From Methanobrevibacter sp. YE315 (lineage in GTDB: Archaea > Methanobacteriota > Methanobacteria > Methanobacteriales > Methanobacteriaceae), in contig NZ_CP010834.1 in NCBI RefSeq assembly GCF_001548675.1, forward strand, positions 1,585,501 to 1,649,500: 64,000 nt of DNA, read 5' to 3'. Numbering within the stretch: position 1 is the first letter of the stretch; the number at the start of each line of letters is the position of its first letter. The translations under genes and the position numbers were made by a program. Shown here in pieces: positions 14,973 through 27,053 of this stretch. Below the pieces are notes generated by a model. That model saw only the letters and a program-made list of their open reading frames with translations. It did no database searches and had not been told where the DNA came from.

Positions 14973-17900
14973 ATGGATGTGAATAAAACGATTAACAAGA
15001 AAAAGCTGTTTATCAGCATTTTAATTGTATTAAGTGTTTTCATCTGTTTGACTTCTGTTGCAGCTCAGGATACTTTAGATGCCAACCTAACGCAGGATTA
15101 CAGTGATGAGGTTTCACAGGCCAGCGGAGACTATCAAAGCGAACCCCTGGAGGCTGAAATTGAGGAATCAGCTTTCGATTCGACTTCAAAAGGAAATGGT
15201 TCGGCAATCAACTCCGCATCTGATGAAAAGAATGTTTCTCAAGATAAGTTGGGTGCTACAAACGGCAAAGAACCGCTTGGAGACATTATTCCTGTCAGTG
15301 ATTACAGATTCAGCGTTATTCAAGATGCTATTTATCAAGCCCATTCCGGCGACACCATCTATCTCAAACCGGGCACCTACTACAATGACTGGAATCGTGA
15401 GATTAAAATCGATAAGACGGATATTACAATCATCGGTAATTCCGCAATTTTGGACGCACAAGGCCAATCAAGAATATTCTTGATTCAAAACTCAGATAAT
15501 GTAACAATACAGAATATTAAATTCAAAAACGGCCATGAATCTCATGATGGTGGTGCTATTTATTGGCATGGCGATAATGGTCAGGTTTCTGATTGTAGTT
15601 TTGAGAACAATACTGCTTATGATAGTGGTGCTATTTATTGGAATGGTGATAATGGTCAGGTTTCTGATTGTAGTTTTGTGAACAACACTGCACATACACG
15701 TGATGGTGCTGCTATTTATTGGGATGGTACTAATGGTCAGGTTTCTGGTTGTAGTTTTGTGAACAACACTGCAAGTAATGGTAATACTATTCGATGGAAC
15801 ATGGTTTCTAATGGCAAGATTTCCAACAGCATTTTTGTAAACAACAATGCAAGTGATTCTATTATATATTTTTTCGACTGGACTGGTTCTAATTTGACTA
15901 TTAACAACAATATTTTCTTAAATAACAGTTGTGCTAGTGAAATCTCTTTCTATCGTATGGATGATGCTTCCAATATCGATTTCAATTGGTTTGGAAACAA
16001 TGCAACAGACTATGCAGCACAGCCAAACACGGTTAATATTGTCCCTAATAACTGGCTGTATATGAATGATACTGCTAGCCATGGCGGAATTGCCGGCATA
16101 GACCCAAGCGACATTACCTTTGACCTGTTTGTCTATAACAACACTGCAGGCATAACCGAAGGCAAGTACGCTAACACTTCCCTTCTCATGCCTGTCAAGC
16201 TGACAGTCACTGCAACCAACGGAAACGTTAACAAAAACGTTACAACATTCGGTGAAACAATCACATACATTCCAACAGGTCATGGAAAATCTAGCGTAAC
16301 AGCACAGATAGCGAATGCAAAACAGACCTTTGAAATTCCCCTAGGGGACTTCGGCCTATTGCAGGACCTAATAGATAATGCCGGTGCAAATTCAGTTATC
16401 AATCTGACACGCAACTACACTTACAATGATTTGGACAACATGGATGATGGTGTACTGATAAATAACAGCAATGTCACAATCAACGGTAACGGATATACAA
16501 TCGATGCAAAAGGCAAATCAAGAATATTCGCCCTTTTCCAATCCACAAATATAACAATACGGAACATTACATTCAAAAACGGCCACGCCAATGGACGTTT
16601 AGTTGGTGGTGGTGCTATTTATTTGAATGATGCTGATAGTTGTAGTATTTCCGGTTGTAGTTTTGTGAACAACACTGCATCTTATGGTGATGGGGGTGCT
16701 ATTTATTTGAATGATGCTGATAATTGTAGTATTTCCGGTTGTAGTTTTGTAAGTAACTATGCATGGGAAAATGTTATTTATTTCCGCAATGTTTATGATG
16801 GTAAAAAAATAACTATTAACAACAATATCTTTTTAGATAATGATTGTCCTAGTGAAATTTCTTCCTATCAAACTGTTGCTGATTCCAATATCGATTTCAA
16901 TTGGTTTGGAAACAACGCAACCGACTATGCAGCACATCCAAAAACAGATACTATTGAGCCTAACAACTGGCTGTATCTGAATGCCACTGCCAGTCCAAAT
17001 GAACTTTCAATTTTGGACTCATCAAACATTACCTTTGATTTGTTTGTTTACAACAATACTTCACAAATGCCTGAAGACAAGTATGATTCTTCTCTTCTCC
17101 TGCCGGTCAACCTGACAGTCACAGCAACCAAAGGAAAAGTTAGCAAAAACGTCACAACATTCTGTGAAACAATCACATACACTCCAGCAAGTTCCGGAAC
17201 CGGTAGCGTAACCGCACAAATAGCGAATGCAAAACAGACAGTTGAACTTTCTCTAAAAGGGGACTTCGACCTATTGCAGGAACTAATAGACAATTCCAGT
17301 GCAAATTCAGTCATCAATCTGACACGCAACTACACCTACAACGATCTGGACACAATCACTGAAGGTGTAGTTATAAGAAACAGGAATGTCACAATCAACG
17401 GTAACGGATATGCAATCGATGCAAAAGGCCAATCAAGAATATTCAAGATTGAAGGCTCTCAAAGTGTAATAATAAAGAATATTACATTCAAAAATGGCCA
17501 CATAAGTAATTATGGTGGTGCTATTTATTGGGAAGGTAGTGCGGATGGTGTTGTTTCTGAGTGTAGTTTTGTGAATAACAGTGCTAGGTATAACGCTGGT
17601 GCAATTTATTGGGATAATAGTGCTAATGCGAATGTTTCGAATTGTAGTTTTGTTAACAATAATGCAAGTAATACTGCTGCTCTTTTAATGACATTTTGTA
17701 ATAATGCACATGTTTCTGGTTGTAGTTTTGTGAATAACAGTGCTAGGTATAACGCTGGTGCTATTGGTTGGGGAGCTAGTGATTATGGTAGTGTTTCTGG
17801 TTGTATTTTTGTGGATAACACTGCAAGTGATATTGGTGGTGCTATTTGTTGGGATACTGATTGTTCTAATGGTCAGATTTCCAACAACATTTTTGTAAAT

Positions 17901-20900
17901 AACAATGCAGGTCATAGTCTTATCTATTTTTACAACGACGGTAGAAATTACAATTTGACTATTAATAATAATATCTTTTTAGATAATGATTGTAATAGTG
18001 AAATTTATTTCGTTAAAAATGATGATGCTTCCAATATCGATTTCAATTGGTTTGGAAATAATGCAACCGACTATGCAGTGCAGCCCAACACAGTTAATAT
18101 AAACCCTAATAACTGGCTGTATCTGAATGCCACTGCCAACCCAGATGTCCTCACAAGCCTAGACCCAACCGACATTACCTTTGACCTGTTTGTCTATAAC
18201 AACAATGCAGGCACAACCGAAGGCAAGTACACAAACACTTCCCTTCTCATGCCTGTCAACCTGACAGTCACTGCAACCAACGGAAACGTTAACAAAAACG
18301 TCACACAATTCGGAGAGACAATCACATACGCTCCAGATAAGGTAGGAACCGCCAGAGTGACTGCATCAATAGAAAACGTTCATCAAACTATTGAAATTAA
18401 GGTTAAGGACAATTTAACCCTTCAGGCCACCTGCGATCCTATATGTTTTGGTGATAATGCTACTATTATTGTCACAGGTTTTGCAAACGCTACCGGTGAA
18501 GCCAGGGCCTATGTTGGTGATGGTCTGTACTGCGCAACTATTGTGAGCGGCGTTGCCACTTTCAATGTTCCGGGAGTAATCGAAAATACCACAGCCACAA
18601 TCAAGTATTTCGGCGATGACAATTACAACAACGCTTCCACTGAGGTTCTCATTATCGTAGGGCCTAAGGATGCATCCGTAAGCGTTGCCAATGACACCAT
18701 GGAGCTGAATATCGGTTCCAATGATACAATCATTGCAACTACCACTCCTGAGGGCTTGAATGTGACATTTGCTTCCAGCAACGAATCCGTTGCAACTGTT
18801 GATGAAAATGGTACAGTTGTAGCAGTCAGTGCAGGAACTGCCGTGATTACAGTCAGCGTTGGTGATGACATGGCATACGTCAAAAACTCAACCACTGTAG
18901 ATGTGACAGTTACAAAGATACCTACCGAAATCAATATCGCCAATGAAACCGTAGCGTTAAAAGTCAAGGGGGAAACCCCTGCAGGCGCAACATTAACACC
19001 TGCCGACGCACCAGTTGACAACTTGACATACGCATCAAGCGACGAAAGCATTGTCAAGGTTGAAAACGGCAAGATTATTGCCGTTGCTGAAGGCAATGCC
19101 ACTGTCACAGTTTCATTTGCCGGTGACAAGAAATATGCGGCAGCGCAAAGCAAGACAATCGCAGTTACCGTGACACTTAATGATGCTAAAGTTGATGTTG
19201 ATCAGTCCTCATTGGACTTATTGGTTGGCCAAAACAGTACAATAGTTGCTACAACAACACCTGATGGTTTAAATGTAACCTACACATCTAGTGATGAGTC
19301 AATCGTCAAAGTGGACAACGGCCAAGTCACTGCTGTTGGTGAAGGTAATGCAACCATAACCATCAGTGTCGGCGGAGATGGCGTATACGCAGAAAACTCA
19401 ACTTCCGTAAAAGTCGCAGTATCCAAAATACCTACCGAGATTACATTAACTAATGACACTCTCGATTTGAAAGTGAATGAGTGGATTAGTGATGTTGCGA
19501 AATTATCACCTTCCGAGGCAGGCAATCTAACCTATGTTTCTAGTGATGAAAGCATTGTCTTAGCTTCCGAGGGCATGATTTTTGCTCAAGGTAAAGGTAC
19601 TGCTACTGTTACCGTCTCATTCGCGGGTAATGATAAGTATGTGGCTGCCTTAAACAAAACAATAACCGTTAATGTTTCATTAAGGGACGCCAGAGTTAGC
19701 GTTGAGAATGATACCATTGACTTGAAGGTTGATGACCGGTATGACCTTAACGCTACAGCAGTTCCTCGTTTCTTGAATATTGAATATGTCTCAAGTAATG
19801 AGTCTGTTGCTACCGTCACTGACTACGGCATTGTCACTGCTGTCGGTGAAGGCACATGCGTCATTACATTAACTGTCGGCAATAACATTACCTTCGCTGT
19901 CAATTCCACCAATGTCACTGTAAAAGTAAGTAAAATCGCTACAGAAATTAACTTAACCAATGACACTCTCGATTTGAAAGTAAATGAGTGGGTTGATGAT
20001 GTTGCGAAATTGATACCTGCTGAAGCAGGCAATTTAACCTTTGTTTCCAGTGATGAAAGCATTGTCTTAGCTTCCGAGGGCATGATTTTTGCTCAAGGTA
20101 AAGGTACTGCTACTGTTACCGTCTCATTTGAGGGTAATGATAAGTATGCGGCTGCCTTAAACAAAACAATTACTGTTAATGTTTCATTAAGGGATGCCAG
20201 AGTTAGCGTTGAGAATGATACCGTTGACTTGAAGGTTGATGACCGGTATGACCTTAACGCTACAGCAGTTCCTCGTTTCTTGAATATTGAATATGTCTCA
20301 AGTGATGAGTCTGTTGCTACTGTCACTGATTACGGTATTGTCACTGCTGTCGGTGAAGGTACCTGCGTCATTACATTAACTGTCGGCAATAACATTACCT
20401 TCGCTGTCAATTCCACCAATGTCACTGTAAAAGTAAGTAAAATCGCTACAGAAATTAACTTAACCAATGACACTCTCGATTTGAAAGTGAATGAAATGGT
20501 CAGCGATGTGGCGAATCTGACTCCTGCAGATGCAGGCAATCTAACCTTCGTTTCCAGTGATGAAAACATTGTCAAGGTTGAAAACGGCAATATCATTGCC
20601 ATAACCGAAGGCAATGCTACAGTCACCGTTTCATTTGCAGGTGATGAGAAGTATGCGGCAGCGCAAAGCAAGACAATCACAGTTACAGTAACACTAAACG
20701 ATGCCAAAGTTGTTGTTGACAATTCATCCTTAGAGTTGATGGTTGGTGAAAGCAGCACAATAACTGCTACAACAACCCCTGAGGGCTTAGATGTCACATT
20801 TGCTTCCAGCGATGAGTCCATCGTCAAAGTGGATGATGGCCAGGTTACTGCCGTTGGCGAAGGCAATGCAACCATAACCGTCAGTGTTGGCGGAGATGGA

Positions 20901-22433
20901 GTATATGCACCAAACTCCACCACAGTAACAATAACAGTGACCAAAATACCTACAGAAATCAGTGCAAGCGCCGCTTCAGAGATGTATGTTGCTGATGAGT
21001 CCAAAGTAGACTATTCCTTAAATCCTAGCGATGCCAAAGGAAATGTGACTTTCACAAGCAACAATCCTGATGCAGTAACTGTTGATTCTGATGGTGTAAT
21101 AGTGGCTTGCGGCGAAGGCTCAGCAGTCATAAACATCAATTTCTCAGGAAATGAAAAATATGCTGCATCCAATACCACTGTCACTGTCACTGTTTCCAAA
21201 GCCGGATCAAAAGTTACAATCGAGCCTATCGACAATGCAAACTACGGCGAGGATGTCACTGTCAGATACTCAATCGAAAACAGAACAGGCAATGTCGGTG
21301 TCATTGTTGAGAATAGCGATGGAACTCCAGTATCTGAAGATAACATAATAATTGCTGACGATGAGGTTACAATTAGTGGTTTGGATGCCGGAAACTACAC
21401 AATCACTATAATCAACTATGCAGACGATAAGACCAAAGAGTCTGATGATTCTGCCATGTTTACTGTTTCCAAGTTCTCACCAAGCCTTTCCTTGGAGGTA
21501 TCCGACATCACTTGTGGTGAGGTGGAAGTCATAACCATTAAAAGCGACGTTCCGGGAACTGTCAATGTCACTGTCAACGGCATTACCGAGACACTTGAGC
21601 TCAATGGTGAGTCCAAAGAGATACTCTTTGCTGCGTTTTCAAACGTTTTAAAATCAGATAACAGGGCAACCTTAAGCCTCGACAATCTGAAGGCTGGAAA
21701 ATATCCTGTAACTGTTGCCTATAACGGTGATGATAACTATGAAAGCGTCACCAAATCAGACGAGTTTACAGTCAGTTCCAAAAACGCAACCATTGATGTC
21801 GATTCAAGTGACATTAAAGTGGGCGAAGATGAGACAATTACCGTAACCCTGCCGGAAGATGCGACAGGCACAGTCACCGTAGAACTGGATGGTGCCAATT
21901 ACACTGCACCGGTAGAAAACGGCAAAGCGGTCTTTGACATTCCTGATTTGAGTGCGGGCGATAAAACAGCCAAGATCAATTATTCAGGTGACGATAACTA
22001 CGGTCCATCCGAGACCACCATTTCGTTTACAGTGAGCAAAGTCAAACCTGACGTATCCGCTCAGAATGTTTCAAGTGATGACAGCGGCAAGATTGTCATT
22101 TCTCTTCCTGAAGATGCAACAGGTACAGTTACAATTACCGTTGACGGTGAAAACTACACTGCACCGGTAGAAAACGGCAAAGCGATCTTTGATATTCAAA
22201 GGTTATCCCCAGGAAAACACGACATCAAAGTATACTACTCAGGTGACGACAAATACGAAGCGATGGAATTTGAGTTGACCATTACTGTAGAAGGCAACGG
22301 CACTGATGAACACAACAGAACTATTGAATCTTCAAATGTTGAAAAGACAACTGCAACAGGAAATCCTATATTGGCATTGCTTCTGGCATTGCTTGCAGTT
22401 GGATTTGCCCCTTGCAGAAAAAACAGAAAATAA
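14973..22433 (+). CDS. Giant adhesin-like surface protein (beta-helix plus Big_2 Ig-like domains)
   Basis: This 2486-residue protein has an N-terminal signal sequence (LFISILIVLSVFICLTSVAA). Residues about 100-1143 form three right-handed beta-helix modules of similar layout. Each ends in DFNWFGNNATDYA followed by an Ig-like segment with DITFDLFVYNN. The later two each begin with a SANSVINLTRNYTYNDLD-type segment, near residues 470 and 775. One Ig-like domain follows, then about ten Big_2-type domains of 84 residues (about 1234-2083), then four Ig-like domains, two sharing LPEDATGTV and NYTAPVENGKA. The C-terminus is a hydrophobic helix plus CRKNRK, a membrane anchor. Many N-x-T/S sites suggest N-glycosylation. 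Such proteins are thought to mediate attachment to host or bacterial partners. The ligand is unknown. Confidence 0.9.
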   Translation: MDVNKTINKKKLFISILIVLSVFICLTSVAAQDTLDANLTQDYSDEVSQASGDYQSEPLEAEIEESAFDSTSKGNGSAINSASDEKNVSQDKLGATNGKEPLGDIIPVSDYRFSVIQDAIYQAHSGDTIYLKPGTYYNDWNREIKIDKTDITIIGNSAILDAQGQSRIFLIQNSDNVTIQNIKFKNGHESHDGGAIYWHGDNGQVSDCSFENNTAYDSGAIYWNGDNGQVSDCSFVNNTAHTRDGAAIYWDGTNGQVSGCSFVNNTASNGNTIRWNMVSNGKISNSIFVNNNASDSIIYFFDWTGSNLTINNNIFLNNSCASEISFYRMDDASNIDFNWFGNNATDYAAQPNTVNIVPNNWLYMNDTASHGGIAGIDPSDITFDLFVYNNTAGITEGKYANTSLLMPVKLTVTATNGNVNKNVTTFGETITYIPTGHGKSSVTAQIANAKQTFEIPLGDFGLLQDLIDNAGANSVINLTRNYTYNDLDNMDDGVLINNSNVTINGNGYTIDAKGKSRIFALFQSTNITIRNITFKNGHANGRLVGGGAIYLNDADSCSISGCSFVNNTASYGDGGAIYLNDADNCSISGCSFVSNYAWENVIYFRNVYDGKKITINNNIFLDNDCPSEISSYQTVADSNIDFNWFGNNATDYAAHPKTDTIEPNNWLYLNATASPNELSILDSSNITFDLFVYNNTSQMPEDKYDSSLLLPVNLTVTATKGKVSKNVTTFCETITYTPASSGTGSVTAQIANAKQTVELSLKGDFDLLQELIDNSSANSVINLTRNYTYNDLDTITEGVVIRNRNVTINGNGYAIDAKGQSRIFKIEGSQSVIIKNITFKNGHISNYGGAIYWEGSADGVVSECSFVNNSARYNAGAIYWDNSANANVSNCSFVNNNASNTAALLMTFCNNAHVSGCSFVNNSARYNAGAIGWGASDYGSVSGCIFVDNTASDIGGAICWDTDCSNGQISNNIFVNNNAGHSLIYFYNDGRNYNLTINNNIFLDNDCNSEIYFVKNDDASNIDFNWFGNNATDYAVQPNTVNINPNNWLYLNATANPDVLTSLDPTDITFDLFVYNNNAGTTEGKYTNTSLLMPVNLTVTATNGNVNKNVTQFGETITYAPDKVGTARVTASIENVHQTIEIKVKDNLTLQATCDPICFGDNATIIVTGFANATGEARAYVGDGLYCATIVSGVATFNVPGVIENTTATIKYFGDDNYNNASTEVLIIVGPKDASVSVANDTMELNIGSNDTIIATTTPEGLNVTFASSNESVATVDENGTVVAVSAGTAVITVSVGDDMAYVKNSTTVDVTVTKIPTEINIANETVALKVKGETPAGATLTPADAPVDNLTYASSDESIVKVENGKIIAVAEGNATVTVSFAGDKKYAAAQSKTIAVTVTLNDAKVDVDQSSLDLLVGQNSTIVATTTPDGLNVTYTSSDESIVKVDNGQVTAVGEGNATITISVGGDGVYAENSTSVKVAVSKIPTEITLTNDTLDLKVNEWISDVAKLSPSEAGNLTYVSSDESIVLASEGMIFAQGKGTATVTVSFAGNDKYVAALNKTITVNVSLRDARVSVENDTIDLKVDDRYDLNATAVPRFLNIEYVSSNESVATVTDYGIVTAVGEGTCVITLTVGNNITFAVNSTNVTVKVSKIATEINLTNDTLDLKVNEWVDDVAKLIPAEAGNLTFVSSDESIVLASEGMIFAQGKGTATVTVSFEGNDKYAAALNKTITVNVSLRDARVSVENDTVDLKVDDRYDLNATAVPRFLNIEYVSSDESVATVTDYGIVTAVGEGTCVITLTVGNNITFAVNSTNVTVKVSKIATEINLTNDTLDLKVNEMVSDVANLTPADAGNLTFVSSDENIVKVENGNIIAITEGNATVTVSFAGDEKYAAAQSKTITVTVTLNDAKVVVDNSSLELMVGESSTITATTTPEGLDVTFASSDESIVKVDDGQVTAVGEGNATITVSVGGDGVYAPNSTTVTITVTKIPTEISASAASEMYVADESKVDYSLNPSDAKGNVTFTSNNPDAVTVDSDGVIVACGEGSAVININFSGNEKYAASNTTVTVTVSKAGSKVTIEPIDNANYGEDVTVRYSIENRTGNVGVIVENSDGTPVSEDNIIIADDEVTISGLDAGNYTITIINYADDKTKESDDSAMFTVSKFSPSLSLEVSDITCGEVEVITIKSDVPGTVNVTVNGITETLELNGESKEILFAAFSNVLKSDNRATLSLDNLKAGKYPVTVAYNGDDNYESVTKSDEFTVSSKNATIDVDSSDIKVGEDETITVTLPEDATGTVTVELDGANYTAPVENGKAVFDIPDLSAGDKTAKINYSGDDNYGPSETTISFTVSKVKPDVSAQNVSSDDSGKIVISLPEDATGTVTITVDGENYTAPVENGKAIFDIQRLSPGKHDIKVYYSGDDKYEAMEFELTITVEGNGTDEHNRTIESSNVEKTTATGNPILALLLALLAVGFAPCRKNRK
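19455..20468 (+). repeat. Two tandem 507-bp repeats inside the adhesin
   Basis: Copy 1 spans 19455-19961 and copy 2 spans 19962-20468. A third copy begins at 20469 but soon diverges. The unit is exactly 169 codons, a pair of Big_2-type domains, so the frame is kept. The copies look over 90 percent identical by eye, with long identical blocks such as the region around GACCGGTATGACCTTAACGC. This points to recent unequal crossover or gene conversion. Confidence 0.9.
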
Positions 22434-24502: not shown

Positions 24503-24832
24503 TTAATCACTTTTTATCATGGTTAAAATCATTTTAAATGGACTGTTTTCAGCTTGAAGTGCATGTGGGTCATTAGCTGGCATGATAATAATTTCACCTG
24601 CTTTTACGGTATTTTTTACACCTGAAATTGTGATTTCCGCTTCACCGTCAATGACCTGAACCATTGCATCAAAGGGAGCTGAATGTTCAGACAATCCCTG
24701 ACCTTGGTCAAAGGCAAAGAATGTGACTGTACCCAACTCTTTTTTGATTACTTCACGGCTTACTACACTGTCCTTTTGATAATCCAATAAGGATTGGATA
24801 TTTAAAGCTTTAGCCTTAATATCCTCGTTCAT
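24503..24832 (-). CDS. Single-domain cupin protein
   Basis: This small cupin of 109 residues carries the two conserved motifs. The first covers GQGLSEHSAPFDAMVQVIDGE, lacking the usual second His but with H at its core. The second covers GEIIIMPANDPHAL with one His. The beta-barrel probably binds a metal or a small molecule, and no catalytic role can be assigned. It lies three bases after the hcp stop and is therefore in an operon with the hybrid-cluster protein. A link to nitrosative or oxidative stress is inferred from that context only. Confidence 0.82.
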   Translation of the reverse strand: MNEDIKAKALNIQSLLDYQKDSVVSREVIKKELGTVTFFAFDQGQGLSEHSAPFDAMVQVIDGEAEITISGVKNTVKAGEIIIMPANDPHALQAENSPFKMILTMIKSD

Positions 24833-24835
24833 GAA

Positions 24836-26143
24836 CTATTCCCCCATTATGGTTTTTATGTCGGCTATTGCATCGCCGGTTGTTGGAGTTAAGTTGTAGT
24901 TTTCAACCAGGACATTTAATATGTCTTCATTTGCCCAAGCAGGAAGTACCGGTCCGATCCACATGTCGGTTTTGCCCAAGTAGAGTAAAGCCCAGAGTAC
25001 TGCGGCCGCTTTCTGTTCCATCCAACTGAGGACAATAGTCAATGGCAATTCATTCAATTCCATGTCGAACAATTCACATAATGCTACTGCCACATCAACT
25101 GCAACAATAGTGTCATTGCATTGACCTACATCCAATAATCTTGGGATGCCTTCAATATCTCCTAAATCCAAATCATTGAACTTGTATTTTCCGCATGCCA
25201 AGGTTAAGATAACAGTGTCTTCAGGCAAGTTTTGAACGAATTCTCTGTAGTAGTCATTGTGTTTTGCTGCTTTGTCACATCCTCCTACAACGAAGAATCT
25301 TCTGATTTTGCCTTCTTCAACTAATTTTTTGATTGCATCTGCATGCTCTACGATAGCTCCTGCACTCCAACCGGTTGTGATTGTGGTTAATTCTTCAGCT
25401 TCTAAAGATCCTAAGGATTTTGCACATTCGATAACTTCTGAAAAGTCATAATCTTCTATTGTTTTTACGCCTTCAAGTTTTGCCACATCCATTGTGAACA
25501 TTCTTTCTTTGTATGCATCGAGTGCAGGCAATACGCAGTTGCTGGTTCCAACGATTGCTGCATTGTATTTTTTAAAGATTGTTCTTTGGTCATGCCATGC
25601 TCCACCTAGTTGACCTGCCAGGTTTTCGTATTTGTTGAGTCCAGGGTATCCGTGAGCCGGCAACATTTCAGAGTGAGTGTAAACTTTAATGTCAGTCCCT
25701 TCCACTTGTTTTAATAATTCTTCTAATGCCTTCAAGTCGTGACCGGTTACAATGATAGCTGGTCCTTCTTGTGCACCCACTTTCACTTCTACAGGTTGTG
25801 GTTCGCCGTAAGCTTCAATGTGAGCATCTTTTAGCAATCTCATTACATCTACGCTGACTTTACCTGCTTCAAGAGCTAATGCAACTAAGTCGTTAGTGTC
25901 GAAGTTGACGTTGGTTAAAGTGGTGTATAAACCTTTGGTTAAAAATGCATCAATTTCAGGGTCGAATTTTCCTAAAACATTTGCATTGTAGTTATAAGCA
26001 CTAATTCCTTTCATAGTAAAGATTAAATTATCTTGTAATCTTGCTACAGTTGCATTTTTACCACAAACACCTTTTACAGTACAACCAGTACCTTTAGCGG
26101 TTTGGGAACATTGATAACAAAACATATCTAAGCCGTCTGCCAT
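24836..26143 (-). CDS. hcp: Hybrid-cluster protein / hydroxylamine reductase, short class III form
   Basis: This protein of 435 residues has an N-terminal cysteine motif at C9, C12, C21 and C27 ([13 protein letters not shown] then TVKGVC) for the cubane cluster. Hybrid-cluster ligand segments are all present in order: [57 protein letters not shown] and [11 protein letters not shown]. It is about 110 residues shorter than E. coli or Desulfovibrio Hcp, which fits class III enzymes that lack part of the helical N-terminal domain. The family reduces hydroxylamine in vitro and nitric oxide physiologically. A TATA box and palindrome upstream, with a divergent TrmB-like gene, suggest regulated expression. 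The cupin gene follows. Confidence 0.94.
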
Positions 26144-26190
26144 TTTAATTACCTCTTAATTATTGTTAATTATAGATTTCAGTCAGTTAG

Positions 26191-26198
26191 TATATAAG
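26191..26198 (-). promoter_or_regulatory. TATA box of hcp-cupin operon
   Basis: Read on the minus strand, CTTATATA lies 48-55 bases before the hcp ATG at 26143. It abuts the palindrome at 26204-26231, so a protein bound there would touch the TFB-recognition element on its upstream side. Confidence 0.5.
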
Positions 26199-26203
26199 TA
26201 TTT

Positions 26204-26231
26204 TGTCACTTTTCAAGGGTGAAAAGTAACA
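26204..26231. promoter_or_regulatory. 12-4-12 palindrome, candidate operator between hcp and trmB-like gene
   Basis: The arms are TGTCACTTTTCA and TGAAAAGTAACA with AGGG between them, and there is one mismatch in the dyad. The site sits exactly between the two divergent TATA elements (26191-26198 and 26234-26243), only 2 and 5 bases from them. Two-fold symmetry of this size fits a dimeric winged-helix regulator, most simply the TrmB-like protein encoded alongside. Binding would affect both promoters. Confidence 0.65.
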
Positions 26232-26233
26232 AA

Positions 26234-26243
26234 TTTATATATT
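26234..26243 (+). promoter_or_regulatory. TATA box of trmB-like gene
   Basis: TTTATATATT is centred about 27 bases before the ATG at 26265. Initiation at the usual archaeal distance would give a leaderless or nearly leaderless mRNA, consistent with the absence of a ribosome binding site. Confidence 0.55.
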
Positions 26244-26264
26244 ATCTACAACAAAACATTAAAC

Positions 26265-27053
26265 ATGGACGAAAATATCAAAATACTTAAAGGAATCGGA
26301 CTTACAATGTATGAAGCACAGGCATACGTAACACTCACTTCATTGATATCATCAAATGCAGCCGAAATAGCTGAAAAATCAGATATTCCAAGAAGCAAAA
26401 TATATGATGTGCTTAAAGGATTGGTTAAAAAGAATTTTATTGAAGTCGAAGACGGAAGACCACTGACATATAACGTCAAATCCCCCGTCGAAGTGCTAAG
26501 CCGAGAAAAAGAAAAAATAAACTCGGAAATAGATGACACAATAACAAGATTAACCTACATATATGAGAACGGTATGAGCCAGGTTCAAGCACCAATCTGG
26601 AGAATATACGGCGTTGACAAAATCATCTCACAGGAAATAGAAATCATCAGCCGTGCAAAAAGTTCAATCAACATGAGAATAGGATTCCTTTTCGAAGGCG
26701 AAGGGGAAGCCCTGGTTAAAGCATTTAAAAAAAGGCGAAAATTGAATGTGAACATACTGGCTTCACCGACATGCTACATCAACAATGAAGAATTTGACAT
26801 CATTGAATTCTTTAAGGAAAACGACATCCCCATCCAAAAAGCCGACATTCCATTTGTAAAAGTGCTGATTTCAGATTCAAAAGAGATGATGCACACCTAC
26901 ACCAAATTTACAGAGGACAAGAGAAACGTTATCCCCCAGACAGCTATTGGAATCTGGAACAAATACGAGGACGTTGCAAGAAACTATGATGAAAGGTTCA
27001 TGAATCAGCTGAATAAGATGAAATCCAAAAAGCAGAATAATAAAAGAGATTAA
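26265..27053 (+). CDS. TrmB-family transcriptional regulator
   Basis: This protein of 262 residues has an N-terminal winged helix of about 70 residues. The segments LKGIGLTMYEAQAYVTL, SSNAAEIAEKSDIPRSKIYD and VLKGLVKKNFIEVEDGRPLTY are the hallmark of the TrmB family. A helical linker (EVLSREKEKINSEID) follows, then a C-terminal phospholipase-D-like domain (YGVDKIISQEIEIISRAKSSI) that senses ligands or mediates dimer contacts in this family. No sugar-binding signature is evident. It is transcribed divergently from hcp and cupin across a palindrome, so it probably controls that operon and itself. The ligand is unknown. Confidence 0.9.
   Translation: MDENIKILKGIGLTMYEAQAYVTLTSLISSNAAEIAEKSDIPRSKIYDVLKGLVKKNFIEVEDGRPLTYNVKSPVEVLSREKEKINSEIDDTITRLTYIYENGMSQVQAPIWRIYGVDKIISQEIEIISRAKSSINMRIGFLFEGEGEALVKAFKKRRKLNVNILASPTCYINNEEFDIIEFFKENDIPIQKADIPFVKVLISDSKEMMHTYTKFTEDKRNVIPQTAIGIWNKYEDVARNYDERFMNQLNKMKSKKQNNKRD

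Follow-up and report, generated by a model that had tools for sequence, protein, structure and literature searches.

In the organisms in which it has been studied, Hcp acts on nitric oxide and hydroxylamine (PMC10210160), and bacteria place small nitrogen-oxide regulons under a dedicated regulator (HcpR, NsrR, NorR or DNR), which is often encoded beside hcp (PMC1274295). In the literature that we searched, no regulator of an archaeal hcp was found described. The TrmB family includes the sugar regulators TrmB and TrmBL1 as well as TrmBL2 of the Thermococcales, an abundant chromatin protein and global repressor. In OxsR of Haloferax volcanii, a winged helix of the TrmB family serves stress and not sugar (PMC9426492). 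Here, a window of 64,000 nucleotides from Methanobrevibacter sp. YE315 was analyzed, in which a palindromic element lies between hcp and a divergent TrmB-like gene. We consider it quite probable that this element serves as operator for a small stress regulon centred on hcp and governed by the divergent regulator, a TrmBL2-like protein without the TrmB sugar domain.

The intergenic region (26144-26264) separates hcp-cupin on the minus strand (24503-26143) from the TrmB-like gene on the plus strand (26265-27053). The hcp gene (24836-26143, minus strand) encodes a class III-like hybrid cluster protein of 435 aa that matched PF03063 (Prismane; E=1e-120) and TIGR01703 (E=1e-191), with a family score of 637.6 bits against a cut-off of 360.8 and the shortened N-terminal part of class III proteins, the main stretch of the match beginning at model position 120. 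The downstream gene (24503-24832, minus strand) encodes a cupin-domain protein of 109 aa (Cupin_2, PF07883; E=6e-9); it comes after hcp in nearly all relatives and is apparently co-transcribed with it. The 262-aa regulator matched PF01978 (E=1e-20; 73.8 bits against a cut-off of 25.6), and these matches support the identities of hcp, cupin and TrmB-family genes given in the preliminary description. Elsewhere in the window (14973-22433), a repetitive secreted or surface protein of 2486 aa is encoded, resembling the adhesin-like proteins of gut Methanobrevibacter. As had also been described, two divergent TATA boxes flank the dyad: CTTATATA of hcp-cupin (26198-26191, minus strand), located 3 nt from the dyad with a TATA spacing that is fixed in relatives, and TTTATATA of the TrmB-like gene (26234-26241, plus strand), which touches the dyad. 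If the distance from TATA box to start is the one common in archaea, transcription of the regulator gene would begin at or beside the ATG at 26265, giving a leaderless mRNA, and that of hcp would begin approximately 25 nt upstream of the hcp ATG, giving an mRNA with an AGAGGT ribosome site. The leaderless regulator mRNA suggested earlier fits the spacing at this locus but is not general, as in several relatives the leader is longer and has sequences resembling ribosome sites.

The dyad, TTTGTCACTTTTCA-AGGG-TGAAAAGTAACAAA, occupies 26202-26233 and consists of 14-nt arms around a 4-nt spacer, with 13 of 14 positions paired. The one-mismatch dyad first noted as 12-4-12 at 26204-26231 is real, but its arms are longer, giving 14-4-14. 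No other dyad in the window reached at least 13 of 14 pairs with a loop of 0-12 nt, and the sequence, with up to 3 mismatches allowed, was present once in the 2.27-Mb genome. When the AT-rich 121-bp intergenic region was shuffled 2000 times with dinucleotides approximately preserved, 7 shuffles reached the same dyad quality; judged on symmetry alone, a chance origin is modestly unlikely but still possible. The dyad lies within a conserved 33-bp element, TTTTGTCACTTTTCAAGGGTGAAAAGTAACAAA (26201-26233, no strand assigned), which is common to 53 distinct hcp//regulator intergenic sequences of the genus. The strictest part is the hcp-proximal half site (26201-26210, minus strand; TTTTGTCACT on the plus strand and AGTGACAAAA on the hcp strand), which abuts the BRE/TATA of hcp; TTTTGTnACT adjoined the hcp TATA box in 47 of these 53 sequences. 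The asymmetric centre GGGT (26217-26220, minus strand; ACCC on the hcp strand) was found in 50, while the regulator-proximal half site, AAAAGTAAC (26222-26230, plus strand), was less conserved, with AAAAGTnAC in 21 and its AGT core in 47. Judging from this comparison across the genus, in which the hcp half and the centre are strict and the regulator half drifts, the site is directional and not a simple palindrome. The label of a palindromic operator therefore describes the dyad symmetry, but not a site that is strongest at its hcp side (47 versus 21 sequences). In one genome (L018/L047), approximately 560 extra bases containing an open reading frame separate the regulator from the hcp-side half site, and of the operator only the hcp-facing part, with GGGTGAAAA, is retained.

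A homologue of the regulator was present in 62 of 67 congeneric genomes and was divergent from hcp-cupin at almost all congeneric loci examined; nearly all genomes of the genus had the site between the two. The gene pair and its site were also found in other genera of the family, and a model built on the hcp sites of Methanobrevibacter recovered the hcp//regulator site in genera outside its training set (for example, G085, 6e-9; G105, 1e-8; G068, 2e-8). Methanothermobacter-like and Methanothermus-like genomes, which represent other families of the order, carried the hcp-cupin//regulator pair with a related site, TTTTTGTCACT-N6-GTATAAAATGnnACA, at the same place between hcp-cupin and the regulator, the centre being GTAT in the Methanothermobacter-like genomes. 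The Hcp proteins of these genomes (L282-L285) have an N-terminal rubredoxin-like extension that is absent from the Hcp of the window. Overall, the expectation that the same dyad would accompany the same gene pair in relatives was strongly borne out across the genus and the order.

Further promoters were identified with a sequence-only profile, R1, built from 42 hcp//regulator sites and containing no other targets in its training set (1500 shuffles gave a mean score of -22.5, a standard deviation of 6.3 and a maximum of 9.1). In the own genome, R1 found three promoters at E<1e-3, namely the training site and two others, one ahead of the gene for a 96-aa protein designated P96 (genome position 1848513), the other ahead of that for a 73-aa DUF1858-like protein (genome position 1760448). 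R1 matched in 87 of 139 genomes of the family, and the extra matches were nearly all in one orientation, just upstream of a gene's TATA box. The genes behind them most often encoded P96, then the DUF1858-like protein, and further a DUF2249 protein (beside a DUF1858-like gene), CMD/AhpD-like proteins, cupins, Hcp itself and one MtrA-like protein; the G043 site within a coding sequence is probably a chance match. When upstream regions were scored, 52 of 55 were positive for P96 and 21 of 25 for the DUF1858-like gene, all in the same orientation. Both genes are fronted by the hcp-proximal half TTTTGTnACT, and the gene-strand consensus of the hcp promoters is ACTTTTnACCCTTnaanAGTgACAAAATcTTTATA. 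One fprA with a site was found in relatives by a pattern search, not by R1; before either FprA gene of the own genome the site was not found. The operator is shared by hcp and nitrogen-oxide genes (DUF1858-like, DUF2249 and one fprA). The earlier view that the site controls hcp-cupin and the TrmB-like gene agrees with its location between both, but it was too narrow, as P96 and DUF1858-like genes also stand behind the element. Conservation across relatives and recurrence at other promoters, going beyond what chance would give, are our grounds for regarding the palindrome between hcp and the TrmB-like gene as a real control site. The idea of a common core promoter was dropped, since among 13 matches to the half site plus TATA (up to 2 mismatches) the GTnAC core and GGGT occurred together in only the three regulon promoters.

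P96 (MHVKDLLDDLG...QHWYSTD...KDDFEYIG; L121:2665-2952, genome 1848164-1848451) is conserved in most genomes of the genus and has a mostly beta predicted structure. It matched nothing in Pfam or NCBIfam, and neither a relative by sequence in the PDB nor a convincing fold match was obtained. At several loci, a nitroreductase gene and an MtrA-like gene that stands alone are in the vicinity of P96. A stand-alone MtrA-like gene (L188, L271) is preceded by the operator in G006 and by a degenerate half-site with TATA in the own genome, a hint that a protein of methanogenesis type may be linked to the element. The own DUF1858-like protein matched DUF1858 weakly (E=0.22) and had no NCBIfam match; 8 of 15 members of its family matched DUF1858, the best at 8e-10.

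In the structure model of the regulator (pLDDT 90.9), a winged helix, a coiled coil and a PLD-like domain can be distinguished, and the closest solved structures were TrmBL2 and, for the second half, PLD-family proteins. This is the architecture of TrmBL2 (~264 aa, winged helix plus PLD-like domain), while the score of 38.5 bits is far from the 530 of the TrmBL2 equivalog level. The protein is not of the sugar-sensing TrmB/TrmBL1 type, scoring 82 bits against 650 for TrmBL1 and showing no match to the TrmB sugar domain PF11495, nor of the OxsR thiol type, having two domains and no invariant cysteine. Among 39 members of the regulator family no cysteine was invariant; 7 had none at all and Cys170 was found in 30. 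A thiol-switch sensor was dropped as a candidate for this reason. In the second domain, Gly140, Glu146, Asp204, Glu207 and Asn232 are among the residues that do not vary. In several genomes (L081-L084, L086-L088), a paralogue of the regulator with 40-43% identity is located directly upstream of fprA, in an operon, behind TGTCACT-N14-AGTnACA by a TATA box, which is the same half-site architecture as that of the hcp site. In the tree, the fprA-linked paralogues formed one clade whose nearest relatives were the hcp-linked regulators of another genus, suggesting that they may have been acquired from that genus by transfer and then re-assigned.

In the explanation that we favor, the TrmB-like protein, probably as a dimer, binds TTTTGTnACT-N6-GGGT-nAAAAGTnAC, and for binding as such our confidence is high. 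The site would act from directly upstream of, and overlapping, the hcp-cupin BRE at a fixed spacing to the TATA box, and since it also abuts the regulator TATA, one site could provide both hcp control and autoregulation; in the own genome, P96 and the DUF1858-like gene would be under the same element. The PLD-like domain would sense a nitrogen-oxide or related redox signal, upon which the regulator would most likely help TFB/TBP and activate transcription. At TrmBL1-activated promoters, the regulator's site is likewise upstream of and on the BRE. The same arrangement at OxsR-activated promoters (PMC9426492) is the reason why activation, rather than repression, seems to us the better-founded assumption, if by no means a firm one.

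The main rival on direction is that the TrmB-like protein binds but works as an NsrR-type repressor, blocking TFB at both promoters until released by a nitrosative or redox signal. A BRE-overlapping position suits a repressor too, the element touches the regulator TATA, the methanogen regulator MsvR derepresses itself and a neighbouring operon (PMC9426492), and hcp and its regulator change in the same direction in M. ruminantium (PMC5816558). Against this, the element is upstream of TATA in all targets, with the strict half against TATA and an asymmetric centre, which is the usual layout for archaeal activators. Archaeal repressor sites are more often on or downstream of TATA. We regard repression as possible, though rather doubtful. 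That another factor reads the element, with the TrmB-like gene merely one of its targets, is suggested by P96 sites kept where neither hcp nor regulator was found (loci L249-L252, in G016, which is 96% complete, and in the less complete G018, G043 and G045), an observation that also counts against the explanation that we favor. Such sites could reflect a reader other than the regulator, or else hcp and regulator may have been lost jointly or fall into assembly gaps; these genomes are drafts that lack hcp as well as the regulator, which is the pattern that joint loss or a gap would produce. Moreover, the regulator is coupled to the site throughout the order and a separate version of the site precedes the fprA-linked paralogue, so that a different reader appears unlikely. 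A strong extended core promoter (BRE plus TATA) with no dedicated regulator would account for the strictest half being on the BRE and for the high expression of hcp in M. ruminantium (log2 counts per million of 12.26; PMC5816558). It is nevertheless highly improbable, considering that only three promoters in 2.27 Mb carry the element, that conservation extends ~25 bp past the BRE and includes GGGT and AAAAGT, and that the targets are functionally related.

Regarding the signal, we presume that DUF2249 is the same family as COG4309. COG4309 belongs to bacterial NsrR and NnrR nitrogen-oxide regulons (PMC1274295), a DUF1858-DUF2249 fusion is DrpB of a Thermus nitrate-respiration cluster (PMC6282519), and DUF2249 genes rise in denitrifying haloarchaea (PMC11218638). 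FprA is a flavodiiron protein, and relatives of this group are nitric-oxide reductases. When M. ruminantium was exposed to lauric acid, hcp (mru_2121) and the adjacent regulator (mru_2122) changed jointly, by -1.46 and -1.62 log2, respectively, opposite to fprA1, fprA2 and rubrerythrin (PMC5816558); the adjacent locus numbers identify them as the pair described here. Together, the DUF1858/DUF2249/FprA links and this expression pattern make a nitrogen-oxide related signal likelier than general oxygen stress, and whether it is nitrosative or closely related we judge to be evenly poised. Alternatively, regulator and operator are real and the signal is not nitrosative; it would then be oxygen, iron-sulphur damage or a metabolite that the PLD-like domain binds. 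A paralogue tied to fprA, of the F420H2/oxygen oxidase family, CMD/AhpD-like and cupin genes among the targets, and the lack of an evident NO-sensing motif in the regulator point this way, whereas the main ties of DUF1858 and DUF2249 are to nitrogen-oxide metabolism and the opposite movement in M. ruminantium disagrees with it. Such a signal is a serious possibility, if somewhat short of even. We also count against the explanation that we favor that FprA, an obvious partner, has no site in the own genome, that fprA2 rises while hcp falls in M. ruminantium (PMC5816558), and that no invariant cysteine shows how NO would be sensed. The preliminary description had proposed a nitrosative- or redox-stress regulator distinct from sugar-sensing TrmB; the DUF1858-like, DUF2249 and FprA genes with the site and the lack of a sugar-domain match lend this independent support, with binding and signal as putative parts of the proposal.

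Overall, the data point to a previously undescribed archaeal stress regulon. In full, the Methanobacteriales would possess a dedicated nitrogen-oxide or redox stress regulon, and its TrmBL2-like regulator, sensing through a PLD-like domain, would be the first for an archaeal hcp. Paralogues would have been re-assigned to fprA, and P96 and the DUF1858-like protein would be newly recognized components of nitrosative defence in methanogens; this picture may hold or fail with about equal probability. Methanogens of the gut and rumen are exposed to nitrite, NO and nitro-compounds, among them feed additives that lower methane, so that the sensing and survival of such compounds is of practical weight. 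The work yields an operator that can be tested, a short list of genes and two uncharacterised proteins for study, and the TrmB family is extended to another likely stress role.

The bacterial regulators HcpR, NsrR, NorR and DNR share with the system described here its general plan, but they belong to the CRP/FNR, Rrf2 or NtrC families and not to TrmB; the HcpR2 motif GTAACnnnnGTTAC has letters in common with the site, but not the spacing. MsvR likewise acts in methanogens on a neighbouring oxidative-stress operon and on its own gene, but its protein family and motif differ. TrmB and TrmBL1 have a related winged helix and PLD-like part; in contrast, the targets here are not sugar genes and the score is far under the curated equivalog cut-offs. 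TrmBL2 has the same length and domain order and was the best full-length PDB match (E=4e-22 by sequence, E=1e-16 by fold), but where it acts globally on chromatin, a specific operator is found here at very few promoters. OxsR is similar in having a motif upstream of BRE/TATA that is associated with activation, but it is a single 123-aa domain with Cys24 and a CG-rich motif (PMC9426492), whereas here the motif is AT-rich, with GTnAC, and the protein, without an invariant cysteine, carries a PLD-like second domain.
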